A program made the position numbers and the translations under genes. DNA of 64,000 nt from Brevundimonas bacteroides DSM 4726 (GTDB taxonomy: Bacteria; Pseudomonadota; Alphaproteobacteria; Caulobacterales; Caulobacteraceae): assembly GCF_000701445.1 (NCBI RefSeq), contig NZ_KL370782.1:1-64000 (forward strand), in the 5' to 3' direction. Below the pieces are notes generated by a model. It made no database searches and was not told where the DNA came from. It worked only from the letters and a program-made list of their open reading frames with translations. Positions 17,499 through 61,035 of the stretch are shown piece by piece; the first letter of the stretch is position 1; every line of letters starts with the position of its first letter.

Positions 17499-17517
17499 AT
17501 GCGAACCCGGTTCGCAT
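17499..17517. repeat. Dispersed palindrome, copy 1
   Basis: ATGCGAACCCGGTTCGCAT, a perfect palindrome of 9-bp arms around a central C. It lies intergenically, right after the stop at 17497. It is one of eight copies across the prophage and the first from attL. Confidence 0.9.
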
Positions 17518-17566
17518 GCGCGGCGCACGGTCCGTCTCTTGCCCCGGAATCGGGCCCAGAAACGCG

Positions 17567-17611
17567 AAAAGGCCCCCGGGCCGCCCCGCATCTGCGGAGA
17601 GGCCCGGGGGC
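17567..17611 (-). terminator. Strong hairpin terminator at the end of the late operon
   Basis: Perfect 11-bp arms, GCCCCCGGGCC (17572-17582) and GGCCCGGGGGC (17601-17611), enclose an 18-nt loop that can itself fold. On the minus strand the hairpin is followed by CCTTTTCG. It sits between converging genes (stops at 17497 and 17641) and probably ends late transcription. Confidence 0.75.
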
Positions 17612-17640
17612 TAGGCTCAGGAGGGGGAATCCGATCGGGA

Positions 17641-17883
17641 TCAGTCAGTCGAGCGGAGCGCCCCGATCACGGCGCGCAGCTCGGGAACGCCGACATAGAT
17701 CCGGACATAGGAACTCCCCCCTTCGCCCAGGATCGGGCGATCGGCGAGTTCCGACCAGGTGTCGGCGATGGTCGCGAGATCAAAGAAACCTTCGCTGGGC
17801 CCGGGCGAGCCGTCGCTCTGGGCGACCAGGCTCGCGCCCAGCGTCTGGATCTCGGCGAGTGTCAGGGCCTTCGGATCCCGCAT
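17641..17883 (-). CDS. Small phage protein of unknown function, last gene of the late operon
   Basis: 80 residues beginning MRDPKALTLAEIQTLGASLVAQ. It has a helical N-terminus and a mixed C-terminal half (SSYVRIYVGVPELRAVIGALR). No family recognised. It lies downstream of the spanin pair and immediately before the terminator at 17567-17611, so it may be a lysis-linked accessory gene. Confidence 0.55.
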   Translation of the reverse strand: MRDPKALTLAEIQTLGASLVAQSDGSPGPSEGFFDLATIADTWSELADRPILGEGGSSYVRIYVGVPELRAVIGALRSTD

Positions 17884-17926
17884 CGCCAGCGAGGCGAGCG
17901 TCTGGACCCGGGCCGAGGGTTATTTG

Positions 17927-18274
17927 TCAGTCATCCGGCGGCCTCGGATCTGGCGGCGGCGGGGACGCGGGGCACGACAGCCGCGCGTCCGCGATCACCG
18001 CGTCGAGGAGATCCTCGCGGGCGAAACGGCGCGCGACGTAGTTCAGGCCTTCTGGACTGCCCTGCAGGGTCGCCCCGGCCGGAAGCGAGATCGCCTCCGG
18101 AACCGGCGCGAGCAGCTCGGGCGGACAGGCCGTCCGCGTTTCAACGCGGGTCGCGAGGACCGGCTGCGGAACCGACGGCGGGTCGGCCGCCGGCGAGCTG
18201 GCGCATGCAGTCAGCGTCGCAGACGACAAGGCCAGAAGGATCCCGAGGCGCAGCGTCGATTGCGCTTTGAGCAT
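17927..18274 (-). CDS. Outer-membrane spanin-like lipoprotein (Rz1-like, o-spanin)
   Basis: 115 residues. A signal peptide ends in a lipobox (SATLTAC) and a proline-rich mature part follows (SSPAADPPSVPQPV). These are the two hallmarks of Rz1 proteins, which fuse inner and outer membranes in the last step of lysis. Its start (ATG 18274) lies inside the upstream spanin gene in a different frame, overlapping by 134 bp, the classic nested Rz/Rz1 arrangement. It is longer than lambda Rz1 (60 aa). Confidence 0.75.
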   Translation of the reverse strand: MLKAQSTLRLGILLALSSATLTACASSPAADPPSVPQPVLATRVETRTACPPELLAPVPEAISLPAGATLQGSPEGLNYVARRFAREDLLDAVIADARLSCPASPPPPDPRPPDD

Positions 18275-19258: not shown

Positions 19259-19309
19259 GGTCGTTCTCCGGATTTGGGGTCTGAGGCGACGCGGCCGTCG
19301 GGCGCGCCG

Positions 19310-20093: not shown

Positions 20094-20918
20094 TCAGAGC
20101 TGGTCTGAGAAGGCGATGGCGTTCAGGCGATCCATGACCATGCGACCGGCGTCGACGGTGTGGACGTAGGTTCCGAGGAAGAGGGCCGGCGAGCGCCAGC
20201 CGCCCGCTTCCATGGCGACGCGGACATTGACGCCCGCATTCAGAGCATTCGTCGCAAAGGCGTGACGCCCGACGACATGGCTGGACTTGTACGGCAACCC
20301 CGCCCGGGCACAGACCGCCTTGATCCGCTCATTGACGGAGTATCGGCTTGTGTAGCGAAACACCCGTTCGCCCGGCCGCGGATCGAGCGCGCGGATCCGC
20401 TCGATCAGGGGATCCGGAAGCCAGCGGAGACTGTCGACGTCGGTTTTCGTCCGGACCAGGACTGCAGTCCGCCGAACCAGGTCGACGGACTGGCCCTCCA
20501 AGGCGACGGCCTCCGATACGCGCGCAGCGGTCATGTTCATGAACAGGACGCAGCCCGCGAGATGAAACAGACCGTCAGCGTCGCAGCGCTCCAGAAAGCG
20601 TTCCATCCACCGGCGGTTCGCCGGGAGAGCCCTGCGGGTCGGCGGGGCCCTCAGAAGGCGTATCCGGACAGGCGTTCGCCATCCGAGATCGTGCGCGTGG
20701 TAAAGGACGGCCCGGGCCGGGGTTATCACCTGACGATTGCGCGTCGCATTGGATGCTTCCGGATACAGATCAAAGGCCGCCCGATGCACCGCCATAGGCG
20801 TCACGGTCGCCACGTCCGATGCGCCGAAGATGGCGATCAGCCGCGAGATGAACCGGGCCTCGCCGCCATGCTCAACGTAGCTTGCGGCGGCCTGGGCGAA
20901 GGTGAAGGGAGCGGTCAT
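20094..20918 (-). CDS. int: Tyrosine recombinase (phage integrase)
   Basis: 274 residues from the ATG at 20918. Catalytic set visible: Arg133 (TAARVSE), Lys158 (RTKTDVDS), His214 and Arg218 (SSHVVGRHAFATNAL), Trp241 (GGWRSP) and Tyr251 (FLGTYVHT). The N-terminal part is a SAM-like core-binding domain. It would integrate and excise this prophage at the tRNA-Leu site. Unusually, it lies on the late strand between tail-fibre and lysis genes, 3.7 kb from attL. Upstream in-frame ATGs at 20933 and 20978 are alternative starts. Confidence 0.9.
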   Translation of the reverse strand: MTAPFTFAQAAASYVEHGGEARFISRLIAIFGASDVATVTPMAVHRAAFDLYPEASNATRNRQVITPARAVLYHAHDLGWRTPVRIRLLRAPPTRRALPANRRWMERFLERCDADGLFHLAGCVLFMNMTAARVSEAVALEGQSVDLVRRTAVLVRTKTDVDSLRWLPDPLIERIRALDPRPGERVFRYTSRYSVNERIKAVCARAGLPYKSSHVVGRHAFATNALNAGVNVRVAMEAGGWRSPALFLGTYVHTVDAGRMVMDRLNAIAFSDQL

Positions 20919-21085
20919 CCGCCCAAGGATCATCCGACGCGGGAGGGGCCAATGCCCTACATCCGACAGGGGATGCATCTCGCCCGAGGGCTGAGATTAA
21001 CCATCTAAGCGTTCAGAGATACAGCCTCCGGGCGTCCAATGGATCGAGGTTTGCCCCCCCCACATTTTTGAGAGGGGCGTGGGGG

Positions 21086-23057: not shown

Positions 23058-23075
23058 ATGCGAACCGGGTTCGCA
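23058..23075. repeat. Dispersed palindrome, copy 2
   Basis: ATGCGAACCGGGTTCGCA, missing only the final T of the 19-bp consensus, with a central G on the plus strand. It lies in the 54-bp gap between genes ending and starting at 23080 and 23025. Confidence 0.88.
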
Positions 23076-23079
23076 GCCC

Positions 23080-30029: not shown

Positions 30030-30048
30030 ATGCGAACCGGGTTCGCAT
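30030..30048. repeat. Dispersed palindrome, copy 3
   Basis: ATGCGAACCGGGTTCGCAT, the full 19-bp consensus with a central G. It is intergenic, between the sheath gene and the gene ending at 30095, next to the terminator. Confidence 0.9.
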
Positions 30049-48207: not shown

Positions 48208-49380
48208 TTAGGTCGCTGCGGATCTCTTTAGCCCCGCGTGAACCGGCTTCGACAGCACGTCGAGCGCGGCCTCGGCCGCCCGGATCAGGGCCTTCGTGTC
48301 AGCCTCCCGGGCATTGCCGCTCCCGCCGAGCGACCGGATCGTCCGCCCCTCGCCCGCGACCGCGCGCAGGACCCGCAGCTCGCGCGGACCCTTGCCGGCG
48401 ACGGCCAGTTCGATCTGGCGCAGGCGGGCGAGGACATAGGCCCGCTGCAGCTCGGCCGCTGATCGTGCGGCCAGGCCCGAGGCGAACCGGCGGCTAGGCG
48501 AAACTCCGAGCGGGTTCAGGTTGGCGACCCGCAGATCGGCCGCCGCCATTTCGAACGCGATCCGATAGCTGCGCAGGGCGCTGTATTGGCTGGTCGACAG
48601 CTTCCCCGTCTCGAACAGGGTCGCGAGGCCGTCGCGGCTGGAGATCCGGATCGGCTTGTACACTTCGCCGCCGTCGACGCGCCCCTCCAGATCGGCCGCC
48701 GCGACCTTGCCGAGCTGCTCGCCGCGCTGCTCGGCCATGGTCGCCGTCTCGACGACCGCCCGCTCGGACCATGCGGCCTCCAGCTGTTCACGACGCAGGC
48801 GATCCGCCTCGGCCGAGCGCTCCCGGACCAGGCCGAGCGCTTCCCAGGTCGCCGTGCGAGCCCGGTTCGCATCGTCCAGCATCTGGGCCGGGATCTCCTC
48901 GCCCTGCTTGCGCAGCTGGGCGATCGCCGCGCTCAGTCGCTTGGCTTCGACGCGGGCGGCGCGCAGGCGGACGGTCGCCTCCTCGACGCTCGCCAGCGCC
49001 TTGCGGACCGGCTTCGACAGCTCCGGGGCGGCAACGTCCCGGTTCGCCTGAACGACCTTGCGGCGAGCCTGTCCGGCCTGGCGACGCCGGGCCTCGCGCT
49101 GGGCCCGGGCGACGGCCGTCGCCGCCAGCTCGACGCCGGCGACGTGCATCTCGCCGCTGACGCCCAGCTCGCGCTGAACATGGGCGACGATCGCCTCGGC
49201 GACGGCGCGGCGGCCGATCCCGGCGAGGCGGGCCGCGCTGTTCAGAGCCGCGACCTGGGCCCCGGACAGGATCGAGGGAAGCGGCTGGACGAAGGCGACC
49301 CCGCCGATCGACAGCACCTGGAACGCGCCCTTGGCGCTGGTCCCCAGGTTTTGGAAAGAGTTTTTATCTTGATTGATCAT
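48208..49380 (-). CDS. Phage protein of unknown function with long helical/coiled-coil region
   Basis: 390 residues. The N-terminus starts MINQDKNSFQNLGTSAKGAFQVLSIGG. Residues about 85-220 are charged and helical with several coiled-coil-like heptads (ARAQREARRRQAGQARRKV; EATVRLRAARVEAKRLSAAI). The later SSRDGLATLFETGKLSTSQYSALRSYRIAFE recalls the DUF6456-like segments of alphaproteobacterial phage regulators, but this is weak. It is the last gene before the early/late boundary, where a late-gene activator would be expected. It contains palindrome copy 6. Confidence 0.6.
   Translation of the reverse strand: MINQDKNSFQNLGTSAKGAFQVLSIGGVAFVQPLPSILSGAQVAALNSAARLAGIGRRAVAEAIVAHVQRELGVSGEMHVAGVELAATAVARAQREARRRQAGQARRKVVQANRDVAAPELSKPVRKALASVEEATVRLRAARVEAKRLSAAIAQLRKQGEEIPAQMLDDANRARTATWEALGLVRERSAEADRLRREQLEAAWSERAVVETATMAEQRGEQLGKVAAADLEGRVDGGEVYKPIRISSRDGLATLFETGKLSTSQYSALRSYRIAFEMAAADLRVANLNPLGVSPSRRFASGLAARSAAELQRAYVLARLRQIELAVAGKGPRELRVLRAVAGEGRTIRSLGGSGNAREADTKALIRAAEAALDVLSKPVHAGLKRSAAT
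48854..48872. repeat. Dispersed palindrome, copy 6 (one core substitution)
   Basis: gTGCGAgCCCGGTTCGCAT: central C, one core substitution (A to G in the left arm) and the outer A replaced by G. Located inside the 390-residue gene, encoding ANRART. Confidence 0.8.
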
Positions 49381-49430
49381 TTCTCAGATCCCGAAGGGAA
49401 AGGCAGAGCCGAAGGCAGGGAAGCAGGGGA

Positions 49431-49668
49431 CGGACGGACGGACAGCACACAGGACAGGCGTGTCTCGCATGGGCGCAGCGGGCACATAGCGGCTAAGGCG
49501 GGAGGATCGTCCGTATCGTCCGTTCCGTCCGTTTCCCCAGCCAGATCAGGGGCTTGAGGGACGGACGATCCGGCGGCGACGGACGATCGATCGTCCGTTT
49601 TCGCGGCTCGGGCCGCCGCCTCCCCTTGCCGGGCGCGGCGGCATCGTCCGTTCGTCCGTTATCGTCCG
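49431..49668. repeat. Iteron-like CGTCCG cluster, candidate replication origin
   Basis: Eleven copies of CGTCCG/CGGACG in 238 bp: CGGACG at 49431 and 49435; CGTCCG at 49508, 49517, 49526 (exact 9-bp period, each preceded by AT or TTC-like bases); CGGACG at 49562 and 49580 with CGTCCG at 49592 forming GACGGACGATCGATCGTCCGT, a palindromic pair; CGTCCG at 49645, 49653, 49663. They lie just downstream of the helicase gene. Iteron arrays next to replication genes commonly mark origins. This is unproven. Confidence 0.6.
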
Positions 49669-51351
49669 TCATCGCCCGCCCCAATCAGTGGGGTCGTCCG
49701 AGAAGGTGTCCGCCGGGGCATGATCGCCCTCGATTCCGTCGCCGACGCCATCGGAAGCAGCATCGGTCCCCAGGCCCGACGATCGGGCGCGGTGCGCGGC
49801 CTCGGCCGCGTTCGCCTCGGCGGCGCGCTCCTCCAGGGTCTTGAGCCGGATCGGTCCGCGATACTTGAGCCCGGCGGCGTTCTTTCCCGCCACGCCGACC
49901 TGACGATCGCGCAGGGCGTCGCCGAAGGCCTTCGTACTCATGACGCGGTCGTTTCCGTTCTCCTCGCTCCAGTCCTGGAACGACTTGTACAGGACGCCTG
50001 ACAGCTCCCGATCGCTCGGCTGACACGCGTCGCCGGTCAGACAGCATTCGGCCAGCCAGTCGCCGAACGGGCTCGACGCCCGGCGGTAATCCTCAAGCAC
50101 CTGGTCGAGGCTGGCGGGCGGCTGCAGGCTCCCGGCGCGAAGCCAGTCGCCGACGCCCTCGATCAGCCAGTTCAGGATCCCGGCCTTCTCCTCGGCGAGC
50201 TTCTGCGGGAGCAGGCGATCGATCTGGTCCTTGGGAACCTGTCGCCGGAACAGCACCGGCCGGATCCGGCGCCAGATCCCATCGTCATCGCCCCGCGCGA
50301 CCATGAAGCTGTTCATTTCAAAAAACAGCTTGGCCTTCGGTCGGAAGTTTATCGGCTTGGAATGCAGATCCCGCGCCGAGATCGGCGAGCCCGACGTCCA
50401 GGCCTTGAGCAGGCCTTCGTTCATCTTCGACCCGCGCTTCGGTTCGGACAGAACCGCGAGCCGCGTATCGCCGGACAGGGCGATCAGATCCGGCGCTGCG
50501 TCCGAGCCCGAGCGGATCCCGCCCTCAAGGAACGTGTCGGGCGAGGCGGCCAGGCCATAGGTCCCAACCGCCTCGCGACAGGCGTCCAGGATCGTCGACT
50601 TGCCGTCGCGGCCCCGGCCCTGGAACATGAAAAACACCTGCTCATGCGCGCAGCCCGTCGAGCCGTATCCGAGGCATTGATGCGCGTATCGGCGCTCGGC
50701 CGCGTCCGGAAGCGAGTCGGCGACGACCCTTAGGAACTGCGGCGCGGTCGCCTTGGGATCGAATGCGGTCCCGCAGACGCGCGTGATCCGGTCGGCTGGA
50801 TCATGGGGGAGCAGCTCGACGTCGAACGCCCCCTCGGCGTCCGGCTCGGCCGGGGCGGTCCATTTCAGTTTGAGGGTCCCGTTCAGGACGTTCAGGGCGA
50901 ACGGATCGGCGTCGAACGCCCCGATCTCGACCGTCAGATACGACTGCGCCTGGCGCAGCATGGCCGACGTCTTTCCGGCCGATCCGGCGTCGTTCGCGAA
51001 CTTGTAGAAGTCCTTGGCCGGGACGTCGCTCGTAAGGTGCGAGAACAGGGACGGGAGCTGGTGCGCGACCTGGTGCGCGAGCTTGCGGGCCAGATCCTCG
51101 CCGAACTTCGTATCCCAATAGATCCCGTTGAAGCCGACCCAGCCGACGCCGAGCAGGTACAGCAGGGTCGAGTTCGTCGAGTCGACGACACCGCTGCGCG
51201 GGACCGCCCCGCCGGCGAGCAGGATCAGCCGCATGGCGTTTCCGATATCGTTCAAGGGGAAGGCGGCCAGGTCGCCCGGGCTCGGCCCGCCGCCGCCCTC
51301 GCGGACGCGGTCGCCAAACGCGGCCAGCTCGACAACATTGCTCGCGGCCAT
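49669..51351 (-). CDS. SF3 helicase / P4-type primase C-terminal (D5-like) replication protein
   Basis: 560 residues. SF3 ATPase motifs: Walker A GRGRDGKST (245-253), then the SGDTRLAVLSEPKRGSKMNEGLLKAWTSGSPISARDLHSKPINFRPKAKLFFEMNSFMV block, which matches the phage/plasmid primase P4 C-terminal family, and a C-terminal region ending in a charged tail. It would unwind the phage origin. It is 3' to the prim-pol gene (0-bp gap), so the pair probably forms one primase-helicase unit. Confidence 0.9.
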   Translation of the reverse strand: MAASNVVELAAFGDRVREGGGGPSPGDLAAFPLNDIGNAMRLILLAGGAVPRSGVVDSTNSTLLYLLGVGWVGFNGIYWDTKFGEDLARKLAHQVAHQLPSLFSHLTSDVPAKDFYKFANDAGSAGKTSAMLRQAQSYLTVEIGAFDADPFALNVLNGTLKLKWTAPAEPDAEGAFDVELLPHDPADRITRVCGTAFDPKATAPQFLRVVADSLPDAAERRYAHQCLGYGSTGCAHEQVFFMFQGRGRDGKSTILDACREAVGTYGLAASPDTFLEGGIRSGSDAAPDLIALSGDTRLAVLSEPKRGSKMNEGLLKAWTSGSPISARDLHSKPINFRPKAKLFFEMNSFMVARGDDDGIWRRIRPVLFRRQVPKDQIDRLLPQKLAEEKAGILNWLIEGVGDWLRAGSLQPPASLDQVLEDYRRASSPFGDWLAECCLTGDACQPSDRELSGVLYKSFQDWSEENGNDRVMSTKAFGDALRDRQVGVAGKNAAGLKYRGPIRLKTLEERAAEANAAEAAHRARSSGLGTDAASDGVGDGIEGDHAPADTFSDDPTDWGGR

Positions 51352-53169
51352 TTATGCGGCCCTCCCTTCACTGAAACCGGCCCCGGTCGAGGGCTTGAGG
51401 ATGCGAACCGGGTTCGCACCGGCGCGCCGCCAGGCCTGATCGGCCAGCCCGCCGTAAAATCGCGCCGCGGCGTCGCCCTGCAGGACGAACCGCTCGGATC
51501 CGCCGAACGTCTGGCGGCCCTTGAACTCGGGCGATCGCAGATCCCCACGCACCGCCAGGAACACCGGCCGGACGCCTTCCAGGGTCCAGGGCGGATTGGC
51601 CGGATCCGCATGCGGCGCTCGCGGATCGATGCGCCCCCAGCGATCGCCCAGCGCCTCGCCGGCGAAGGTGCGCAGCGAGGGGGCGACGATCGCCGCCAGA
51701 TCATGGCCGTTCGCCTGGGCGTTCTCGGCCAGCGTCCAGACGTCGACGAAGTCGATCCCGACCAGGAGCGACCCGTCCTCGGGAAGGTGTGTCAGCCAGC
51801 CGACGCGGCCGCGGGCTGGACCGACGAAGCGGGCGATGCGCGAGCCCTCCAGCGGGAGGATCGCCAGGGCGTCGGGAGCCTGGTTCCAGTTCAGGTCGTC
51901 CGGCGTCGAGATCAGCGGGATCAGAAGCGCCGGGCCCGTCAGATCCTCGCCGTACTCGCCGACCCCTACGGGCGCCGCCGCATGGGCGCGAAGCTGGGCC
52001 AGCGCTCCCGGGAGGCCGTCGGGATCCAGGCCGTGATGCGCGAACCATGAGCGGACGGCCCTGCAGTCGGCCGAGCGCGCGCCGTCCCAGAGCCGCCGGG
52101 CGGTCTGGATCTCGCCGTCCCAGAGCCGCCGGGCGGTCTGGATCTCGCCGGCGGCCTGCGCGGCCGTCTCGGCGGGCTTGGACGGCTCGCGCGGTCCCGC
52201 GCTTCGGAATGTCTCGGGCTCGGGCGCGGACTTGGGATGCGCAGCGCCCTTTTCCATGCCGCGCACGACGGCGCTTTCGACTTCCTTGCGCGTCCAGGCC
52301 CCCTTGGCGGCCGTCATCTGCAGCCCGGCGGCGATCAGTTCGTCGCGGGCCTGCGCATGCTCGATCTCGCCGCCGGCGACGTACGCCCCGATGAAGGCGG
52401 CGTATCCGAACAGGGTCGACTGTTGCTGGCCCGGCTGGGCCTGGGCGACGGTCCTGCAGGCGGTCCGCAGCGTCGCGGCCCCGAACCTGGACGTCCCGCC
52501 GATCGCCCGGAACTCGCGAGGCCTGACGGGCTCGGACGACGCCGCCGGCGCGGGCGGACAGACCAGCTGCAGAAGCCAGTCCGGGGCGTTCGCAAAGGCG
52601 CGATCGCGCGGCGATCGGCCCTCGGACCAGGCATAGACGCGGCCGGACGGATGGATCGACGGCGGGAGGACGATGTATCCGCCGGTCCCCCGGACGTCGA
52701 TTCCGCGCCCGATCTTCCCCGCCGAGTTCCGCACGTCGAAGCGCGGATCCCAGGCGAAGCAGAGATGACGGCCCTTGCCCGTGCCCTGCTCGACGGTTTC
52801 GGGCAGATCGCCATGCACGGCGATCAGGGCGGCGAGATCCTCCTCGGCCTCGGGCCCGTCGAGATCCAGAACCCAGAAGCCCGAGATCTCGCCCGTCGCG
52901 CAGGCCACGTTGCAGGACGGGTTCGCCCAGATCCGCGCAGGAAGGCGCTCGCCCTCGAACTTCGGATCCCGGATCGGAAGGTCCGCCCGTCCGGCCCAGC
53001 GGTCGGCCGCGACGTCGGCGTCGGCCGAGGCGGCCAGGAGGCCGGTCGAGAACGGAAGCGGCTTTTTCTCACGCTCGCGCAGCGGAAAGACTGCGATTCC
53101 GAGGCGCGCGTACGCCTGGGCGGCCGCTGCGAAACGCGGGCCGGTCAGGGGGCGGATCTCGGCGCTCAT
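51352..53169 (-). CDS. Bifunctional primase-polymerase (prim-pol) N-terminal domain protein
   Basis: 605 residues. The N-terminal AEP-type prim-pol has GFWVLDLDGPEAEEDLAAL (metal-binding DLDG), KGRHLCFAWDPRFDVRNSAGKIGRGIDVRGTGGYIVLPPSIHPSG and a PDWLLQL end. A variable linker follows, carrying an 11-residue tandem duplication (EIQTARRLWDG twice). The C-terminal region (about 370-600) shows no known domain. I chose ATG 53169, overlapping the upstream stop. It contains palindrome copy 7 at its 3' end. Confidence 0.9.
   Translation of the reverse strand: MSAEIRPLTGPRFAAAAQAYARLGIAVFPLREREKKPLPFSTGLLAASADADVAADRWAGRADLPIRDPKFEGERLPARIWANPSCNVACATGEISGFWVLDLDGPEAEEDLAALIAVHGDLPETVEQGTGKGRHLCFAWDPRFDVRNSAGKIGRGIDVRGTGGYIVLPPSIHPSGRVYAWSEGRSPRDRAFANAPDWLLQLVCPPAPAASSEPVRPREFRAIGGTSRFGAATLRTACRTVAQAQPGQQQSTLFGYAAFIGAYVAGGEIEHAQARDELIAAGLQMTAAKGAWTRKEVESAVVRGMEKGAAHPKSAPEPETFRSAGPREPSKPAETAAQAAGEIQTARRLWDGEIQTARRLWDGARSADCRAVRSWFAHHGLDPDGLPGALAQLRAHAAAPVGVGEYGEDLTGPALLIPLISTPDDLNWNQAPDALAILPLEGSRIARFVGPARGRVGWLTHLPEDGSLLVGIDFVDVWTLAENAQANGHDLAAIVAPSLRTFAGEALGDRWGRIDPRAPHADPANPPWTLEGVRPVFLAVRGDLRSPEFKGRQTFGGSERFVLQGDAAARFYGGLADQAWRRAGANPVRILKPSTGAGFSEGRAA
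51401..51418. repeat. Dispersed palindrome, copy 7
   Basis: ATGCGAACCGGGTTCGCA followed by C instead of T; central G. Inside the prim-pol gene close to its stop, encoding ANPVRI. Confidence 0.88.
52081..52146. repeat. 33-bp tandem duplication inside the prim-pol gene
   Basis: Two adjacent 33-bp units starting at 52081 and 52114 (gccgtcccagagccgccggg...) are identical, adding one 11-residue copy in frame. It falls in a linker, so it probably changes only spacing. It is a likely recent slippage event. Confidence 0.85.
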
Positions 53170-53885
53170 GCGGCGCGCTCCCGCTCGGCGACCGTCAGGC
53201 CGTCGAGGTTGCCCCATTGAGCAGCCATGGCGTCCGCGATCCCCTGGAACGTCTTAGATCGGAAGGCCCAGCGGTTCGGCCCGGGCGGCGCGCGATGGAT
53301 CGCGGACCATGCCTTGTGTTCGGCCGTCCCGGCCTTGGGCGGCGTCAGCCTGTTCGTCGGGACAAGCGGCGGGAGGCCGCGCAGGTAGAGTCCGGTCCCC
53401 TTGAAGGCCTTCTCGCCAAACCACCACGGCTGAACCGTCTGGCTGGCTGGTTCGAAGTTCGCGATCCGCGCCTTGGCGTGACGGTGCATGACCGGGTTCT
53501 CGACCGCGATGCGCGGGATCTTCGCGTTCCAGCATGCCGAGAACAGCGCGGCCCCTTCGTCGAGCAGCCGCCACATGATCGTCAGCTGCTCGGCCTCGCT
53601 CATGCCCGGCCAGCGTCGCTGTTCGTCCTCCGTCGCCATGTTCGGCGCATTCTTCGGAGGCCGGTTCAGCCAGCGGACGCCCGAGTTACAGAGCCGGGTG
53701 CAAGGCGGGTGCATCACCGCGAGCAGGTCCCAGCCGTCGCCCAGGACGTCGCGGATATCGCCGATGATATGGCGGTTCGACCGATCCTCGGCGGGAAGCA
53801 GATCGCAGGACCAGACGTCGTGTCCGAGCGCGGCGAACGCGTTGCGGACCACGCCCGAGGTTTCGCATCCGATCAGGATTTTCAT
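53166..53885 (-). CDS. DNA cytosine methyltransferase-like protein
   Basis: 239 residues. The N-terminus MKILIGCETSGVVRNAFAALGHDVWSCDLLP is a SAM-binding first strand with the partner loop, and HPPCTRLCNSGVRW resembles the catalytic PC motif of C5 cytosine methylases. Later WWFGEKAFKGTGLYLRGLPPL is typical of phage members of this family. Some homologues are of unproven activity. It may protect phage DNA. Overlaps by 4 bp with the neighbouring genes on both sides. Confidence 0.75.
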   Translation of the reverse strand: MKILIGCETSGVVRNAFAALGHDVWSCDLLPAEDRSNRHIIGDIRDVLGDGWDLLAVMHPPCTRLCNSGVRWLNRPPKNAPNMATEDEQRRWPGMSEAEQLTIMWRLLDEGAALFSACWNAKIPRIAVENPVMHRHAKARIANFEPASQTVQPWWFGEKAFKGTGLYLRGLPPLVPTNRLTPPKAGTAEHKAWSAIHRAPPGPNRWAFRSKTFQGIADAMAAQWGNLDGLTVAERERAA

Positions 53886-54547
53886 GCAGCGGCCCTCACG
53901 GCTGCGAACTGCAGATCGCTCGGCCGCGTCAGCCGGGCCTTCGCGCCCGGGGCGATATCGATGACGTAGGGATGCGGAGGCCGGACCCGGGGGCCGACGC
54001 CGGGTTTCAGCCAGAGGAACCAGGCATAGGCGGCCGCCGACGCCTGATCGGGATCCCAGCACCCCATGACCAGGGGGAGGCGCTCAGAGAACGGCGCGAC
54101 CGCGTGATACCGACATTCGCCGTAAAGCAGCGCGTGGCGTTCCTGGCCCTCCAGGAAGGCCAGCCGGACCAGCATCGCGACGCCTCGACGCGCCCGTCGA
54201 TACGCCAGCCGGACGAAGTCCTCGCAATGGTCGAACGGCGGATTGGTGACGATCCAGTCGGCGACGAACGGGGCCTGATCGTCGGGATCCCGGACGAAGT
54301 CGAAGATCCGATGACGGCCGTACTGGACGAAGTCGGACAGATAGACGGCGTCGAAATAGTCCTGCAGGCCGTGCGCCATCATGCCGGGCCCGCAGGCGCA
54401 TTCCCAGGCCGTGCGCGCGCGCGGATCCAGCTTGCGGATCAGCTCACCGCCGACCCGGCCTCCCCAAGGGGCCGTGGGGAACAGATTCACGGCGTCGCGA
54501 GCCGGGTTGACGTGCGCCATGGTGGCGCTCAGGCCGCGCGGTTTCAT
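53882..54547 (-). CDS. Adenine-specific methyltransferase-like protein (NPPF motif)
   Basis: 221 residues from ATG 54547. SAM site region RTAWECACGPGMMAHGLQDYFDAVYLSDF, and the catalytic motif NPPF in ADWIVTNPPFDHCEDFVRLAYRRA. It belongs to the phage N6-adenine or related class I methylase group. It is located between two other methylase-like genes. An ATG at 54520 (MAHVNPARD) is an alternative start. Confidence 0.7.
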   Translation of the reverse strand: MKPRGLSATMAHVNPARDAVNLFPTAPWGGRVGGELIRKLDPRARTAWECACGPGMMAHGLQDYFDAVYLSDFVQYGRHRIFDFVRDPDDQAPFVADWIVTNPPFDHCEDFVRLAYRRARRGVAMLVRLAFLEGQERHALLYGECRYHAVAPFSERLPLVMGCWDPDQASAAAYAWFLWLKPGVGPRVRPPHPYVIDIAPGAKARLTRPSDLQFAAVRAAA

Positions 54548-54792
54548 ACGAAGGGCTTTCCGCCCGACGGAGACTTCCCGGCCTTGGCCGCCTTGTTCCG
54601 CTCGCGGATGATCCAGTCGCGAGCGGTCGCCTCGGCCCGCAGCCGATACGCGTCCGGCTCGACGCCGGGCCGGTGCGAATGTCCGAGCGACAGCCGGATC
54701 TTGACCGGAAGGGCCGCCCAATGCGTCGCGCAGGCCCAGCCGAACCGCGAGGCGACGTTGCCGCAGCCCGGCCATTTGCAGTCGCTGCTCAT
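54544..54792 (-). CDS. Small zinc-binding-like phage protein
   Basis: 82 residues. A cluster CKWPGCGNVASRFGWACATHW provides Cys/His ligands in a treble-clef or small zinc-knuckle pattern. The C-terminal part is basic and helical (IRERNKAAKAGKSPSGGKPFV). It lies in the methyltransferase cluster with 4-bp overlaps on both sides, so it is translationally coupled to them. Confidence 0.6.
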   Translation of the reverse strand: MSSDCKWPGCGNVASRFGWACATHWAALPVKIRLSLGHSHRPGVEPDAYRLRAEATARDWIIRERNKAAKAGKSPSGGKPFV

Positions 54793-55364
54793 GCGGAAAC
54801 CCCGAGGGTCGGCGTTAGCGGTCTGACTTTCCGGAAGGGTGACGCGGCCTGACGCTGCATCACCACACCGCAAACGTCCTCGACGATCCTTGAGAGATCG
54901 ACATTCCAGCTGAGCAGCGCGCTCCCGTGGGAGGCGGCTTCCTGGCGACCGTTGTCGCGCATCACGCCGAAGCGCAGCCGTGCGTCGATAAACAGGACGC
55001 TGTCGCAGCTGCGCAGCGCGAGCTGAAAGACCTTCGATTCGGTATGGGCCGGGATAAGCAGAACGACCCGCGTCCGCGTCCCGGCCTCGACGCACCGCTC
55101 GACCCAACGCTTGCGGGCCTCGCCATAAGGGGGGTTCACAAAGATCGACGGCGCATCCCAAGGAAGCGACGCGCCATCTTGCGGGAGGCAGTAGAACCGA
55201 TCCGCTCCGGTCGGATTATCCGGGTCTGTGCAGGGATCTAGGCCGATCCCGCCCAGCAAGCGGCGGACCGGCTCCAGCACATAGGCCGGCGTGGCGAGCG
55301 CTTGGCGAGGGTGATCGTCGGATCTCCGTCGTTTCGCGTTGTCGAACCGATGCGACGCGCTCAT
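54789..55364 (-). CDS. DNA N6-adenine methyltransferase (phage Dam family)
   Basis: 191 residues. Phage Dam family (DNA N-6-adenine-methyltransferase) signature: DDHPRQALATPAYVLEPVRRLLGGIGLDPCTDPDNPTGADRFYCLPQDGASLPWDAPSIFVNPPYGEARKRWVERC with catalytic NPPY, then VVLLIPAHTESKVFQ. Its target site is unknown. It would methylate phage or host adenines, guarding against restriction or changing regulation. Confidence 0.88.
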   Translation of the reverse strand: MSASHRFDNAKRRRSDDHPRQALATPAYVLEPVRRLLGGIGLDPCTDPDNPTGADRFYCLPQDGASLPWDAPSIFVNPPYGEARKRWVERCVEAGTRTRVVLLIPAHTESKVFQLALRSCDSVLFIDARLRFGVMRDNGRQEAASHGSALLSWNVDLSRIVEDVCGVVMQRQAASPFRKVRPLTPTLGVSA

Positions 55365-55948
55365 GCGGCCCGCTCCCCGGCGCGCGTTGCGATCCCGGGC
55401 CGCATGCGGGTATCCGCGCCGAGCAGGGCCGCATGCCAGTTCGCCAGCCCCGCCGCCGTTGAAATGCAGTGATGCAGCGCCTTGGCCCGGTCGCCGGCCA
55501 GAGCGGCGGCCAGCGCCTTCCCGGCCAGATAGCCGATCAGGCAGAACCAGTCGGACGGCTGCTTTCCGGCGTCTTGTTCGGACGGCCAGCGCTCGCGTTG
55601 ATGCGCCGCCTCGCGGACGACACCGGACGCGAAGTCGACCAGCTCGGGCGCATTGAGGAGATCGACCAGGCGGGCGACTTCCGCCTCCAGTTCGGCGACG
55701 CCCTGGTCGAGGCCGAGGACGCAGGCGCCCGACTGGATCCCGAAACGCTCCTCCGTCAGGACGCAGGAGATCCGGCGGCGGCATTCGCGGCCGCTGTAGC
55801 TGTTCGCGACCGGATCGAACTCCCGCAGGTGCAGCACGTCGTCGACGGCGAAGTGACGATCGTTGAACCGGACTTCGAACGGTTTGCGGCCGCTTTCGAC
55901 GTCGTCGAAGTACGCGGGCCAGATCTTGATCTCATGAACGACGCTCAC
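55361..55948 (-). CDS. DUF3850/ASCH-like domain fused to a phage helical domain
   Basis: 195 residues starting at GTG 55948, overlapping the neighbour as GTGA. The N-terminal HEIKIWPAYFDDVESGRKPFEVRFNDRHFAVDDVLHLREFDPV (about 5-75) matches the DUF3850 ASCH-type RNA-binding fold. The C-terminal half (FASGVVREAAHQRERWPSEQDAGKQPSDWFCLIGYLAGKALAAALAGDRAKALHHCISTAAGLANWHAAL) is a conserved domain seen alone in many phages, with no assigned role. The fusion is unusual to me. Confidence 0.75.
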   Translation of the reverse strand: MSVVHEIKIWPAYFDDVESGRKPFEVRFNDRHFAVDDVLHLREFDPVANSYSGRECRRRISCVLTEERFGIQSGACVLGLDQGVAELEAEVARLVDLLNAPELVDFASGVVREAAHQRERWPSEQDAGKQPSDWFCLIGYLAGKALAAALAGDRAKALHHCISTAAGLANWHAALLGADTRMRPGIATRAGERAA

Positions 55949-57369: not shown

Positions 57370-57711
57370 TCAGCCGTCGATATCGGCCCTGACGCGCCGC
57401 TCGGGCGGATCGGGATCGGCAGTACGGGCGGCGCTCGACGTCAGCGCCTCGACCTGGCCGATCATGCCGAGCAGCTCGGGCAGGAGATCCCGGCGCTTGC
57501 GGACTGTCCCGTCGACGAAGGCGCGCGACAGACGGACCAGACGAACGCAGGGGTTCGACGGCGAAAGGACGCCGATCACGACGGAGAGGCGGGCCGCTTT
57601 CTCAGCCTTGGCCAGCGCAGCCGCAGCCTGGTCGGGAGCCTCAGCCGCCTTGCGGGCCTCCCGGGCCAGGCGACGCCACGGCGCAGGATCGACCACGGCC
57701 GGGACGGTCAC
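57370..57711 (-). CDS. Early phage protein of unknown function
   Basis: 113 residues from GTG 57711, overlapping the Cro-like gene as GTGA. It is highly helical and alanine/arginine-rich (ARKAAEAPDQAAAALAKAEKAARLSVVIGVL...RKRRDLLPELLGMIGQVEALTSS). No domain recognised. A 77-bp gap follows before the next gene (57292). Confidence 0.5.
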   Translation of the reverse strand: MTVPAVVDPAPWRRLAREARKAAEAPDQAAAALAKAEKAARLSVVIGVLSPSNPCVRLVRLSRAFVDGTVRKRRDLLPELLGMIGQVEALTSSAARTADPDPPERRVRADIDG

Positions 57712-57938
57712 TGGACGGCCTCAAGGACTGGAGCGAAGTCCGACCATGCAATCGGATTTTCAGTTTCCGCCGTCGCCTCGATCAGAAGGCGCTTGCGATT
57801 ATCATTGATTCCCCGGCCGTCCTTGAGCGCGGCTCGCCAGCGATACACCGTCTCCAGCGCCAGACCCGGTTGTTTTTCCGCGCATTTTTCGTGAACGACC
57901 TTCACCGTCAGGGCGTCGATCTTTTCGATAGCAATCAT
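57708..57938 (-). CDS. Cro-like HTH regulator (early lytic side of the switch)
   Basis: 76 residues. ALTVKVVHEKCAEKQPGLALETVYRWRAALKDGRGINDNRKRLLIEATAETENPIAWSDFAP has a helix-turn-helix with ETVYRWRAAL as recognition helix, in the style of the small YdaS/Cro-like proteins. It is divergent from the CI-like repressor and its start overlaps the operator region, so it is the likely first lytic gene. Confidence 0.7.
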   Translation of the reverse strand: MIAIEKIDALTVKVVHEKCAEKQPGLALETVYRWRAALKDGRGINDNRKRLLIEATAETENPIAWSDFAPVLEAVQ

Positions 57939-57954
57939 TTCACCGGTCGCTTAG

Positions 57955-57971
57955 TTTGCAGATTATGCAAA
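57955..57971. promoter_or_regulatory. Immunity operator O1 (TTTGC-N7-GCAAA)
   Basis: A 17-bp perfect inverted repeat, TTTGC-AGATTAT-GCAAA. It lies 17 bp upstream of the cro-like start (57938) and so is the cro-proximal site. Arms extend to TTTGCA/TGCAAA. Confidence 0.8.
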
Positions 57972-57986
57972 ACACGGCTGAACTGA

Positions 57987-58003
57987 TTTGCAGAGAGCGT
58001 CAA
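57987..58003. promoter_or_regulatory. Immunity operator O2 (degenerate)
   Basis: TTTGC-AGAGAGC-GTCAA. The left half-site is intact and the right half matches in 3 of 5 positions. Start spacing from O1 is 32 bp. Confidence 0.55.
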
Positions 58004-58012
58004 TCGCCACGT

Positions 58013-58029
58013 TTTGCGACTTCTGCAAA
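58013..58029. promoter_or_regulatory. Immunity operator O3 (TTTGC-N7-GCAAA)
   Basis: TTTGC-GACTTCT-GCAAA, perfect arms with an extra T/A on each side (TTTTGC/GCAAAA). It ends 10 bp before the repressor start chosen at 58040, so occupancy would block the repressor's own translation start region. Start spacing from O2 is 26 bp. Confidence 0.8.
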
Positions 58030-58039
58030 ATTCCGGCGC

Positions 58040-58681
58040 ATGAGCCCTCGCGCCGTTACAGTCCTGTCGCCCGAAGCCCGCGAGCTTTCGGAGCTGGTTT
58101 CCCGCTCAGGCCGGAACCAGAAAGAAACCGCCGACTATCTGACGCGTCGTCTCGGACGTGACGTCACGAACGTTCACGTCTCCCGCTGGGTAAACGGCGG
58201 GGTCAAGGTTCCTGTGGACGTTATGGACGCGATGCGGGAGCTGGCGGCCCAGCCCGCAGAATCTCCGCCGGTCGTCAGCGCTATGACCGATTCTGACGCA
58301 GTGGTCCCGCTATTTGGCTACGCCAATGCGGCGGGAGCGGTGCTTAGGTTGAATGAGGATCAGCGTGTCGGGGTCGTCCCCATCCACCCCGCCCAGCGGG
58401 GATCCCGGTCCGCGTTCGCGTTCATCGTGTTCGGGGAAAGCCTTTCGCCGCGCCTGTCGCACGGCGAGATCGCCTATGCCGTTCGCGGCCGCATGCCCGC
58501 CCGGGGACAGCCCTTCCTCCTGGAGCTGAAAAACGGCGACGTCCTGGTCAAGATCTTCGACACGATGGACGACCGGACGCTGTTCGGACGACAGCTGGAG
58601 CCGAAGAAAGATCTGTCCTGGCCCCTGCGCGAAGTCGAGGCCATTCACGCCGTCGTCGGCGTGTCGTTCGGCAGTCAGTGA
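58040..58681 (+). CDS. CI-like phage repressor with S24 peptidase domain
   Basis: 213 residues from ATG 58040. An N-terminal HTH (about 26-52, RNQKETADYLTRRLGRDVTNVHVSRWVNG) and a C-terminal LexA/S24 domain with Ser134 (FGESLSPRL) and Lys171 (LVKIFD). The linker GYANAAGAV is where self-cleavage would fall. It maintains lysogeny by binding the operators to its left and would be inactivated by RecA filaments. An upstream start at 57956 would place the operators inside the gene and is unlikely. Confidence 0.85.
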   Translation: MSPRAVTVLSPEARELSELVSRSGRNQKETADYLTRRLGRDVTNVHVSRWVNGGVKVPVDVMDAMRELAAQPAESPPVVSAMTDSDAVVPLFGYANAAGAVLRLNEDQRVGVVPIHPAQRGSRSAFAFIVFGESLSPRLSHGEIAYAVRGRMPARGQPFLLELKNGDVLVKIFDTMDDRTLFGRQLEPKKDLSWPLREVEAIHAVVGVSFGSQ

Positions 58682-58688
58682 GGCGAGT

Positions 58689-59282
58689 TTGCGCCGGGAG
58701 GATCTTGACCACCTGATCCGGTCCGGCTGGGGCCGGTTCACCGCGGGGCTTTTGGCCATGCTTTCCCTTGCATGGATGGTCGGTGCCAAGTTCACCGGCG
58801 TGATCGATTGGGAATCGACGATCGCATTTGTGGGTGCCGTGCTGGCTTGGGCCTACAGCTGCATTCCCAATGACCCGCCGCGCGAGGCGGCGACTGCGTC
58901 GCCTGCGCCAGCGCCCGGCCGTCGCGGCGCAGCCGCCGTTCCGGAACCGCCGCCCGAGAAACCGCTTGTTCCTGACGCGCCCGTCGCTGACGTCGCCCGC
59001 TATCTGCGGGAGGAAGCAGGGTTCGCCAGCGCCAGCGACGACCAGATCGGCCGGACGATCGTCGATGTCCTGGCGAACCCGGGGCTCAAGGTGAAGGGCT
59101 GGGTCAGGGACAGCGAACACAGCGCCCTCGTGGCGCGGTCGATCTCTTTCTGGAGCGAGGCCCGGCTCGACGTCCGCACGTCCCTGGCATTTGAGCCGAT
59201 GCTCTATGGCGAACCGCTTCCGAACTACGATCCACACCTGAACTGGAACCAGGTGCGCGCCGTCTGGCCGAAGAAGCCCTAA
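58689..59282 (+). CDS. Membrane-anchored protein downstream of the repressor (moron candidate)
   Basis: 197 residues from a TTG at 58689 with GAGGCGAG upstream. Two transmembrane segments (FTAGLLAMLSLAWMVGAKFTGVI; STIAFVGAVLAWAYSCI), then a Pro/Ala-rich linker and a soluble C-terminal domain (VADVARYLREEAGFASASDDQIGRTIVDVLANPGLKVKGWVRDSEHSALVARSISFW...). No family recognised. Being co-oriented directly after cI, it may be expressed in the lysogen. An in-frame ATG at 58758 would remove the first membrane segment. Confidence 0.6.
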   Translation: MRREDLDHLIRSGWGRFTAGLLAMLSLAWMVGAKFTGVIDWESTIAFVGAVLAWAYSCIPNDPPREAATASPAPAPGRRGAAAVPEPPPEKPLVPDAPVADVARYLREEAGFASASDDQIGRTIVDVLANPGLKVKGWVRDSEHSALVARSISFWSEARLDVRTSLAFEPMLYGEPLPNYDPHLNWNQVRAVWPKKP

Positions 59283-59295
59283 CCCTGCCCCTGTA

Positions 59296-59754
59296 TCAGC
59301 AGGCGCCCGCCTTCTCGGCCCCGTAACGCGCCTGCTCGGGCGTGTACCTGTCGCCCGCGCTGGACGACAGCTGGTCGATCAGGCCGGCGCAGGAGAAGCC
59401 GCTCATGCTCAGGTACTGCGCGGCGGATCTCGCGGCGTTCTCGTTCCAGTCGGCGTCGAGGCTGTCGACCGCGACCGTCGCGTCCTCGACGCTGTAGCGG
59501 TCGCCATAGTCGGACGACAGCTGGGCGATCAGGCCGGCGCGCGAGAAGCCCGTCATGCTCAGGTACTGCTCGGCGGATCGGACCGCGTTGCGCTGAGGTC
59601 CCGTCAGGCGAGGGCCTTCGGGCTCGGGAGGGCTGGCCGCTTCGGCCGGGCCTGACGCGCTGGTCGCTTCCGTTGAAGGCCCCTCTGCGCCGCACGACGC
59701 GAGCATCGCCGCTCCGGCAAGCACGGCCGCCGCAATCAGTCCCGGACGCGTCAT
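59296..59754 (-). CDS. Ltp-family lipoprotein, likely superinfection exclusion
   Basis: 152 residues from ATG 59754. Signal peptide with lipobox LASC (lipidated Cys21), an acidic/proline linker, then two Ltp repeats (about 56-103 and 106-152): NAVRSAEQYLSMTGFSRAGLIAQLSSDYGDRYSVEDATVAVDSLDADW and NAARSAAQYLSMSGFSCAGLIDQLSSSAGDRYTPEQARYGAEKAG. This family includes the Ltp protein of Streptococcus thermophilus prophage TP-J34, which blocks phage DNA injection. Next to the repressor it fits a lysogenic immunity gene. Convergent with the upstream gene (14 bp). Confidence 0.8.
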   Translation of the reverse strand: MTRPGLIAAAVLAGAAMLASCGAEGPSTEATSASGPAEAASPPEPEGPRLTGPQRNAVRSAEQYLSMTGFSRAGLIAQLSSDYGDRYSVEDATVAVDSLDADWNENAARSAAQYLSMSGFSCAGLIDQLSSSAGDRYTPEQARYGAEKAGAC

Positions 59755-59849
59755 GGTTTCCCCCTTTGCGATAGCGTTCCCTTGGGCGTACCCGTAACGC
59801 GCGCGCCTCGGATGGCAAGTCGGAAGGCTCTCCCTTGCGCCCCGGTCGG

Positions 59850-59932
59850 TCCGCGCGGACTGCAAACCGCGTGAAACTGAGCGGTAACAGGATTGCGTAA
59901 ACTGCAAATCTTGGATTGACACTTTCTGCAAA
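59850..59932. promoter_or_regulatory. Second operator cluster upstream of the XRE regulator
   Basis: Three copies of the right half-site GCAAA in the 17-bp frame used in the immunity region: 59850-59866 TCCGC-N7-GCAAA, 59892-59908 ATTGC-N7-GCAAA, 59916-59932 TTGAC-N7-GCAAA. Right halves are perfect; left halves match TTTGC in 3, 4 and 2 of 5 bases. The last site overlaps a TTGACA -35-like hexamer (59916-59921) for the plus-strand gene at 59985. No clear -10 was found. Confidence 0.6.
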
Positions 59933-59984
59933 CTGACGCTTGTCTGCGTCCGACGCGAGCATTTCGCGGGTCGGAGACAACGTG

Positions 59985-60416
59985 ATGTTTAATCAAGCGA
60001 GCGACCCCCTCGCTGCAGGCGACGCCGGCGGCCGGACGACTTCCCATCCCCTCGATAGACGGGCCGGAGCGCTGATCCGCCGGCGGCGGACTGAACTCGG
60101 ACTGACGCAGACCGATCTCGCCCAGCTCTGCGGCGTGACGTTCCAGCAGATCCAGAAGTATGAGCGCGGCGCGAACCGCGTGTCGTACTCGCGCCTGGTC
60201 CAGATCGCCCGCGCCCTGCAGGTGCGGCCGGGCTGGTTTTTCGAAGGCCTCGACGGCGAGGACCAGGACGAAGGCCCGGACGCCGCGACGACGCTCATGG
60301 GATCCCGCGAGGGGCGAACGATCGTCCAGGTGCTCCCCCGCCTCGACGCGGCCCAGCGCCGTCTGGTCGCCGATCTCGCCGCCAATCTGGCCGGCCAGTC
60401 CCCGGTGGCGGCATGA
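59985..60416 (+). CDS. XRE-family transcriptional regulator
   Basis: 143 residues from ATG 59985 (GGAG at proper distance; a TTG at 59940 is weaker). HTH at about 27-82: RAGALIRRRRTELGLTQTDLAQLCGVTFQQIQKYERGANRVSYSRLVQIARALQV. The acidic C-terminus ends in a helix. It is similar in build to RstR/ClgR-like phage regulators. It starts a plus-strand operon with the next three genes (ATGA overlaps). Confidence 0.85.
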   Translation: MFNQASDPLAAGDAGGRTTSHPLDRRAGALIRRRRTELGLTQTDLAQLCGVTFQQIQKYERGANRVSYSRLVQIARALQVRPGWFFEGLDGEDQDEGPDAATTLMGSREGRTIVQVLPRLDAAQRRLVADLAANLAGQSPVAA

Positions 60417-60658
60417 CGGCCGCCCCGATCGACGCCGAAGCCGTTGTCGGCGATTGGGATCCCCGGACCGGAACCTTCGCGATCTCGGCCGAGCAGGCCG
60501 CAGCGACTGCCAGCCAGCGGCTCGCGCGGATCCGCGAGCGTCAGCGGCTGCAGCGCAGCGCGGCCGACGCCGCCGTCGCTGCCGGGATCGTCCAGATCAT
60601 TCCCGCGCGCAGGAGCTGGCGGTCGCGCCTGTCGCGCTGGCTGGCCCGCCGATCATGA
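60413..60658 (+). CDS. Small basic phage protein of unknown function
   Basis: 81 residues. A helical charged centre (SEQAAATASQRLARIRERQRLQRSAADAAVAAG) is followed by a very basic C-terminus (RRSWRSRLSRWLARRS). No family. Overlaps both neighbours by 4 bp (ATGA), indicating translational coupling. Confidence 0.6.
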   Translation: MTAAPIDAEAVVGDWDPRTGTFAISAEQAAATASQRLARIRERQRLQRSAADAAVAAGIVQIIPARRSWRSRLSRWLARRS

Positions 60659-61035
60659 GCGCGATGGCCGCCCGCTATGCGAACCCGGTTCGCATGCCCG
60701 AGCCCGAAGCACGTCGGGAGGACGATCGCAGGGAAGCCTTCGCCTGGATCACCCCCTTCGCCCTTCTGGGCGATCGTCCGATCTCGATCCTCATGTTCGG
60801 CAAGGGGCCCGACGCAGCCGTCCGCAGCCTCCTGCGGACCCTCCGGATCCCCGCCCGGGATCTGCAGGCGCGCGCCCAGATGATCGGCGACGTGGCGATC
60901 CTGCGGCGCATGCCGCCGGACGTCGCCCGCGAATACGGCCCCGACACGATCCAGCCGGTCGCCTTCGTCGACGGCTTTTCACAACACGATATCGCCGAGT
61001 CCCTGAGCTGGATCAGCCGGGAACAGGGCGCCTGA
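60655..61035 (+). CDS. Phage protein of unknown function in regulator operon
   Basis: 126 residues from ATG 60655. Sequence (LRTLRIPARDLQARAQMIGDVAILRRMPPDVAREYGPDTIQPVAFVDGFSQHDIAESLSWISREQGA) is helical and slightly basic. No family recognised. Its 5' end contains palindrome copy 8 (ANPVRM). Followed after 7 bp by the ParB-like gene. Confidence 0.6.
   Translation: MSAMAARYANPVRMPEPEARREDDRREAFAWITPFALLGDRPISILMFGKGPDAAVRSLLRTLRIPARDLQARAQMIGDVAILRRMPPDVAREYGPDTIQPVAFVDGFSQHDIAESLSWISREQGA
60677..60695. repeat. Dispersed palindrome, copy 8
   Basis: ATGCGAACCCGGTTCGCAT, the full consensus, central C. Inside the gene at 60655, 348 bp upstream of the ParB-like gene start, encoding ANPVRM. Confidence 0.9.

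Follow-up and report, generated by a model that had tools for sequence, protein, structure and literature searches.

Which protein reads a 19-bp palindrome that recurs across a prophage of Brevundimonas bacteroides DSM 4726, and for what purpose, is the question raised by the first 64,000 nucleotides of contig NZ_KL370782.1 (forward strand; this whole stretch is called the window, and its numbering is that of the contig). An initial annotation of the window had counted eight copies and proposed a parS-like or stoperator-like system, or a packaging, segregation or condensation signal. Here, the array is found to be real and not a product of chance, a ParB-like protein encoded by the prophage is, on sequence comparison, very probably its reader, and the palindromes as a whole are likely to be dispersed parS-like loading sites for this orphan ParB-family protein.

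A palindrome array confined to the prophage

At up to three mismatches, the window holds nine copies of the pattern ATGCGAACC(C/G)GGTTCGCAT, all of them within 17499-60695. All eight coordinates given initially were correct, and a ninth copy, at 33696, had been missed. The sites, to which no strand is assigned, are as follows:

17499-17517: copy 1, ATGCGAACCCGGTTCGCAT, exact, directly past the end of a called gene
23058-23076: copy 2, intergenic
30030-30048: copy 3, intergenic
33696-33714: copy 4, GTGAGAACCTGGTTCGCAT, 3 mismatches, within gene 32870-35167
39167-39185: copy 5, within gene 39030-39434
44364-44382: copy 6, near the 3′ end of the terminase large subunit gene
48854-48872: copy 7, within gene 48208-49380
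51401-51419: copy 8, near the 3′ end of the Prim-Pol primase gene
55388-55404: tentative, degenerate tenth copy, TGCGATCCCGGGCCGCA, 3 mismatches of 16 scored
60677-60695: copy 9, at the start of the small gene preceding parB

The copies at 17499, 30030, 39167 and 60677 are exact, those at 23058 and 51401 have a single outer-base difference each, and those at 44364 and 48854 differ at two of 19 bases. The tentative copy at 55388 surfaced on scoring of the 17-bp core and lies inside the longest gap of the array. By gene calls, three of the nine palindromes are intergenic, as had been noted, and six rather than five lie within genes once the ninth copy is counted; the peptides MRTGFA, NPVR and NRAR described at in-gene sites were confirmed on the gene calls, and the argument that sites inside genes speak against promoter operators holds. 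No more than 3 kb separates 82% of this prophage's sequence from the nearest of the nine sites.

Across the whole genome (3,220,540 bases), the same nine copies were recovered at up to three mismatches, with none outside the prophage, and the pattern read backwards as a control gave zero matches. This extends the earlier observation that the chromosomal part of the window has no copy to the entire host genome, where an equal density of the motif had been named as the result that would speak against a phage system. Dinucleotide shuffles of the window gave a mean of 0.03 matches, and nine were reached in none of 100 shuffles. When up to two mismatches were allowed, 14 of 131 genomes of the genus had a match, and this genome alone had more than two copies. 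The 25-base flanks of the copies, judged by eye, appear unrelated, with only the palindrome in common. With nine copies against 0.03 expected, none elsewhere in the genome and no shared flanks, the chance that they form a repeat family or arose at random is close to negligible. Lone ATGCGAACG-type palindromes were seen in other genomes of the genus (loci L005, L006, L008 and L009), perhaps from other elements.

The proposed reader and its neighbors

The last site lies in a short run of genes on one strand, in which a regulator of the HTH_3 family and a small gene stand upstream of parB:

59985-60416, plus strand: HTH_3 (Xre) regulator, 143 amino acids, PF01381 E 3.3e-16, upstream of parB, disfavored as reader
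60664-61035, plus strand: small gene, 123 amino acids, precedes parB, no Pfam family, present in 4 of 26 site phages
61043-63976, plus strand: ParB-like protein, 977 amino acids, with ParB_N and HTH_ParB domains, ParB-like by PHROG, proposed reader of the palindrome

The 977-residue protein matched ParB_N (PF02195, E 4.7e-17) and HTH_ParB (PF17762, E 2.7e-7, 31.1 bits against a cut-off of 22.6), and both the cytidine triphosphate (CTP) motif GERRWRA and ENVQRAGLHPLEEAEAF are present. Sequence matches in the PDB were to ParB, Spo0J, Noc and KorB (best E 6.4e-21), and the modeled N-terminal part gave fold matches to ParB, Noc and KorB structures (best E 8e-12). Ahead of ParB_N, the N-terminus is modeled as winged-helix-like, with weak sequence matches to winged helix-turn-helix (HTH) proteins, and the C-terminal ~700 residues matched no Pfam family. 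A second large ParB homologue, ~45 kb away from the first, was seen in the phage contig G168 (L274; positions 7111-9558 of the joined stretch).

From the palindrome to ParB

An exact search of IMG/VR with the 17-bp core returned 26 stretches on 15 records, several of them multi-copy; at up to three mismatches, ten copies were counted in G131, nine in G134, seven each in G141 and G144, and five in G137, with G132, G136, G138, G139, G140 and G145 outside the ParB test. Record 2561511096_000001 (G134) carries identical sites at a constant offset and was taken as the same prophage and excluded from independent counts. A scan of genome contigs gave 44 stretches, of which 20 loci in 20 genomes were followed: Phenylobacterium G147 has four copies close together, three genomes have two and the others one. 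These two routes led to six contigs longer than 25 kb on which a de novo search counted four or more copies (G131, G141, G144, G137, G147 and G133), and a ParB of this kind is encoded by five of them: G131, G141, G144, G147 and G133. No ParB was found on G150, G151, G154, G155 and G160, stretches with one or two copies.

From ParB to the palindrome

The converse search started with the protein. As a single query against viral contigs the full ParB returned only the same prophage, and an alignment query was required; viral loci were then taken from the best 80 of 474 ParB relatives and the best 80 of 521 relatives of the HTH_3 protein. The generic core GCGARCNSNGYTCGC had 31 exact matches in 67 ParB-only loci (1.06 Mb), against 2 for its reversed control, and 21 in the 20 loci that hold both ParB and HTH_3 (0.32 Mb), against 0 for the control.

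De novo searches showed that the palindromes differ by phage, with half-sites GCGAACC, GCGAACG, GCGAGCG, ACGAACG, ACGAACC or GCGCACG around a one-base centre; G167 gave no palindrome. At least three dispersed copies of the contig's own palindrome were present in 20 of 23 ParB contigs and in 0 of 10 controls (Mann-Whitney p 1.7e-5), and 15 of the 23 had at least four dispersed copies of one palindrome. These 23 were not chosen blind: 14 have both genes, L223 was taken for its site and eight came from the upper ParB list, from which L200, L202, L204, L205, L207-L209 and L211 were passed over; L149, L224, L233 and loci of phages already in the set were dropped, and several of the contigs are covered in part only. 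The ten controls are a subset of 18 HTH_3-only records, and one has a ParB-like match. An A/T filter hides the array of G170, which the unfiltered de novo search shows. A palindrome family of at least three copies was found in 22 of 84 loci versus 3 of 67, a comparison that used 151 of the 160 loci (those below 9 kb left out), is not fully independent (L114/L115 and L127/L233 share contigs) and includes some clustered, operator-like families.

The same pairing was found in isolated phages. VarioGold has six copies of GTGCAGAC/GTCTGCAC or near variants, Aval has four copies of GTGCACAC/GTGTGCAC, and the Mu-like RR1-B has four copies of a longer palindrome. Piece 48800-53300 of the window, compared as DNA with named phages at large, gave a single short methyltransferase match. 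Yong-DA has five copies of GTTCAGAC/GTCTGAAC on a record with both ParA and ParB. This record, ON073792.1 (L316), is titled 'Aphanizomenon phage Yong-DA' but looks like a plasmid: genes for replication, ParA, ParB and polysaccharides are listed in it, and none for head or tail.

Among the 52 genes called in the window's part of the prophage, parB alone has a homologue in all 26 site phages (and in 1 of 10 controls), a figure that holds partly by construction as many of these phages were picked for their ParB. The HTH_3 gene has homologues in 19 of 26 site phages and 9 of 10 controls, and every other gene in at most 13 of 26. Because of this selection, the weight rests on the set found from the site and on the controls. 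The earlier suggestion of a parS-like system is supported by these results, in that the sites track a phage ParB-family protein and not the Xre regulator; a putative ParB-parS-type system, with putative binding of the sites, appears on this sequence evidence to be real and widespread in phages.

Specificity, conservation, and spacing

Variation of the half-site and of the ParB HTH were correlated across 29 phages (Mantel r 0.28, p 0.005), and more so for odd-centred sites only (r 0.36, p 0.0002, 24 phages), in a test in which shared ancestry was left in and site classes were defined beforehand; the RR1-B HTH failed to align. ParB proteins with the helix FVQQRL go with an inner G and those with RFVEQRL or RYVEQRM with an inner C, an exception being RFVQLRL (G184), which pairs with inner C. 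SR(A/S)Y helices go with even-centred GTGCAGAC-like sites, and Yong-DA has even-centred sites with another helix.

The sites are also kept in place. The contig of the Phenylobacterium prophage G147 covers four of the nine sites, at which 16-17 of 17 bases are kept (copy 6 16/17, copy 7 17/17, copy 9 16/17), and the 150-base flanks of the shared sites are 44-73% identical. Absence of the sites at corresponding positions in related phages had been named initially as a refutation; as far as this comparison was run, the four comparable sites are there. Spacing of the sites is more even than random, with p<0.05 in 11 of 22 phages and a combined p at the simulation limit (1 in 20,001), where the window's prophage, G131, G141 and G144 are related and not independent and RR1-B (four sites) is outside the test.

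Seven phages (the window's prophage and six others) have retained the site where the primase gene ends, and G133 has its own version there, AGGCGAACCCGGTTCGCCT, in place of the window's site. This conservation would suit a palindrome read by another replication, recombination or packaging protein that these phages share, such as the primase. The primase genes themselves, at 51352-53169 and 49669-51351, are present in just 12 and 9 of the 26 site phages, and we regard this explanation as highly improbable. Nothing was found in support of the packaging signal proposed initially.

ParB or the HTH_3 regulator as reader

The HTH_3 regulator at 59985-60416 was at first an attractive reader, having a constant helix and a site after its gene; by this account, the sites would be symmetric stoperators that prevent transcription in the lysogen. 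An odd palindrome of 17 bp is a suitable target for an Xre dimer. In the window's prophage, G131, G141, G144 and G147, the HTH_3 gene has a site downstream of it, in three of the five within ~12 bp of its stop codon, and the recognition helix hardly varies among phages with an invariant site. This reader was rejected as the main explanation on the HTH_3-only sequences and the homologue survey: the exact core GCGARCNSNGYTCGC was found once in 73 HTH_3-only loci (1.17 Mb), no more often than its reversed control (also one), and in 0 of 18 whole HTH_3-only records, and arrays occur where no HTH_3 gene was detected, in G133, G172, G182, G183, G184 and G188. PraR is presumably a relative. Its site, given as CAAC-N5-GTTG (PMC5527310), is in a different register from the palindrome. 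Overall, the HTH_3 regulator is an improbable reader.

Several observations nevertheless weigh against ParB, in addition to that invariant helix and the limits of the Mantel test and of the homologue count given above. G131 and G144 carry the window's site with a quite different ParB helix, and the N-terminal region of their ParB is 28-29% identical to that of the window. The HTH_3 gene is present in all eight phages whose sites are of the TG-flanked class, and most other phages of the same comparison lack it. No ParB was found on G137 (27 kb, five copies) or on the shorter G135 and G143, all possibly fragments, as is G142, where none was found either. Of the 23 ParB contigs, three (G174, G187 and, through the A/T filter, G170) reached two copies only and five others just three. 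For even spacing, 11 of 22 phages fall short of p<0.05, and G185, G170 and Aval show no evenness. The structure model of ParB is poor beyond about residues 1-270 (mean predicted local distance difference test score 53.7), so that nothing is read from its C-terminus.

Partition by ParA is unlikely

ParB together with several parS-like sites would also fit an extrachromosomal form of the phage whose sites act as centromeres and are partitioned by a ParA of the host. N15 has dispersed centromeres. A ParA match (AAA_31, PF13614) was found in 0 of 16 virus records, one of them this same prophage, and the eight PF13614 matches in the host genome are all outside the prophage. The canonical ParA-binding motif [LFI]G[KR]G[LFI] was found in 0 of 22 ParB sequences, a search that divergent motifs (P1 type) would escape, and integrases are present. 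One site lies just upstream of parB and the other eight across 43 kb, unlike parS sites near par genes. Since no ParA was found and the phages integrate, ordinary ParA-type partition by the array is unlikely, as is the segregation signal, in the usual sense, suggested earlier; centromeres served by a host ParA are very improbable.

Control of parB and a possible role of the array

Upstream of the HTH_3-parB genes lie a candidate repressor gene and two groups of boxes that are distinct from the palindrome:

57955-58029, no strand assigned: four TTTGCAGA-type boxes before the CI-like gene, candidate repressor operators
58040-58681, plus strand: CI-like repressor candidate, 213 amino acids, a weak match (phrog_4 E 2.1e-4; Peptidase_S24 E 0.012, below cut-off)
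59859-59932, no strand assigned: three TTTGCAGA-type boxes upstream of the HTH_3-parB genes

The box pattern is not enriched in the window (22 found versus 19 expected); seven of the 22 fall in the two short intergenic spans, a clustering noticed after the fact. Promoter and terminator scans of 57500-61500 found nothing. The palindromes are probably not classical CI operators and were set aside as such, the repressor region having these different boxes.

In G131, G184 and G168, a CI-like repressor match lies upstream of parB on the same strand, and an integrase is on that strand too; an integrase is also present in G133, G183 and G166, and the candidate repressor of G133 had no match to anything. 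In VarioGold and Aval, parB shares its strand with a repressor-type gene and the integrase gene is on the opposite strand, and in the Mu-like RR1-B parB lies between the early repressor and the transposase gene.

If the palindromes are loading sites, a ParB dimer would use its HTH domain to recognize the core of 15-17 bp (TGCGAACC S GGTTCGCA), the ParB_N fold would bind CTP, and the clamp would close round the DNA and then slide off the site, steps that we infer from the biochemistry of ParB, Noc and KorB (PMC11790492, PMC12704722). With sites about every 5 kb, clamps could come to cover most of the phage genome. ParB expression may be under control of the CI-like repressor, and the preferred use would be in early lytic growth or on incoming DNA, where the whole phage genome would be marked, organized or protected; early lytic expression is favored because of the TTTGCAGA boxes before the CI-like and HTH_3-parB genes and the position of the RR1-B parB before the transposase gene. 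Genome-wide coating by ParB in the lytic phase is a possibility to which we give somewhat less than an even chance.

The main rival to this coating role is that ParB reads the sites for long-range silencing of the prophage, as KorB does, with the HTH_3 or CI partner halting clamps at promoters. The fold matches of ParB include KorB structures, and in G131, G184 and G168 the CI-like gene, the integrase gene and parB all lie on one strand. Indirectly against it, the candidate operators before HTH_3-parB suggest joint repression with the lytic genes, and the RR1-B parB lies between early repressor and transposase. We consider silencing of this kind rather unlikely.

Relation to known systems

The nearest precedent is in the cluster O mycobacteriophages (Corndog group), which have more than 30 dispersed 17-bp palindromes, TGTTCGGNNNCCGAACA, about one third of them inside genes, and no integrase; their function is stated to be unknown, the ParB-like protein is considered unlikely to act in genome stability, and no link between it and the repeats is made in the available text (PMC4351075). 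We found ParB_N in Firecracker gp94 and Catdawg gp90 (E 2.7e-6) with no HTH_ParB match in either, and counted 28 and 27 sites, respectively, in 46-kb parts of these genomes. Cluster O thus resembles the window's prophage in its dispersed dyad-symmetric sites, some in genes, and its ParB-like gene, and differs in site sequence, denser sites, no HTH_ParB and, by the available account, no integrase (PMC4351075). On their sequences, these phages show the same pairing of a predicted ParB with palindromes.

The likeness to ParABS lies in the ParB CTPase fold, the HTH and the palindromic sites; the difference is a prophage in which no ParA was found, with sites genome-wide rather than beside the par genes. 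RK2 is a plasmid with its own ParA-type protein, and its KorB is shorter than the window's ParB. KorB and its OB sites, a ParB-family CTPase clamp with distance-acting sites and a small DNA-binding partner (PMC11790492), resemble the putative features of the system considered here; unlike them, this system belongs to a prophage without sign of repression or a KorA homologue, HTH_3 not having been compared with KorA, and the HTH_3 gene is near parB in some phages and undetected in others. The stoperators of cluster A phages are likewise 20-30 dispersed sites for a phage protein, mostly off promoters, but are asymmetric, 13-14 bp long, oriented with transcription and bound by a repressor monomer (PMC6550527); the stoperator-like label given initially is apt for the dispersal of the sites and not for their symmetry. 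The window's protein belongs to the class of orphan prophage ParB-CTPases, having a ParB-CTPase fold without ParA on a mobile element (PMC12704722). In the available text of that survey no cognate DNA sites are given for the ParBs of prophages; such sites are proposed here. The VarioGold paper names a ParB-like domain, and its main text contains neither 'palindrom' nor 'repeat' (PMC9658991). A link between an orphan phage ParB and dispersed palindromes was not found in text searches of an open-licence library, with cluster O being the nearest case.

Joining palindromes that lacked a reader (PMC4351075) with orphan ParBs that lacked sites (PMC12704722), each as far as the available text goes, gives a testable pair in many phages, including the isolated VarioGold, Aval, RR1-B, Firecracker and Catdawg. 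The occurrence of this pair in many unrelated phages suggests a little-noticed way to mark or coat a whole phage genome. Tentatively, and with the odds slightly against it, many unrelated temperate phages may encode an orphan ParB clamp with its own evenly spaced loading array that marks the genome as self; the array would be kept through all modules, inside genes where needed, and the clamp coat would organize, protect or activate the phage DNA. If clamps do coat whole phage genomes, the CTP-switch clamp would have a use not described before and phage mosaicism would be subject to a further, new constraint, since phages that exchange modules would have to keep matching sites and the array would therefore restrict which modules can be swapped.

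Borders and other genes of the prophage

The prophage is bracketed by a 95-bp direct repeat and spans contig positions 16415-68972, extending past the window, with an integrase at contig ~67444-68688:

16415-16509, no strand assigned: 95-bp direct repeat, left end of the prophage; its partner, at 68878-68972, is outside the window

PHROG and Pfam matches include sheath, baseplate, head maturation protease, terminase, portal, Prim-Pol primase and methyltransferases, and by this predicted gene content the element is a temperate phage with a contractile tail. The right repeat is followed by ten N and then by a stretch resembling tRNA-Leu (by eye; contig 68878-69100), at which ARAGORN called no tRNA, and the exact right attachment site is therefore uncertain. 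ARAGORN also called a tRNA-Glu at 38412-38508 (minus strand) inside gene 38224-39027, which is probably false.

A second integrase-like gene (20094-20933, minus strand, 279 amino acids, phrog_1 E 9e-23) is flanked by holin and tail-spike-like genes and is well away from the other integrase, at contig 67444-68688. Three adjoining methyltransferase-like genes, one with a Dam domain, occupy 53166-55784 (minus strand). Between the CI-like and HTH_3 genes, on the opposite strand, a small protein encoded at 59296-59556 (minus strand) matches superinfection exclusion families (phrog_15667 E 2e-37).

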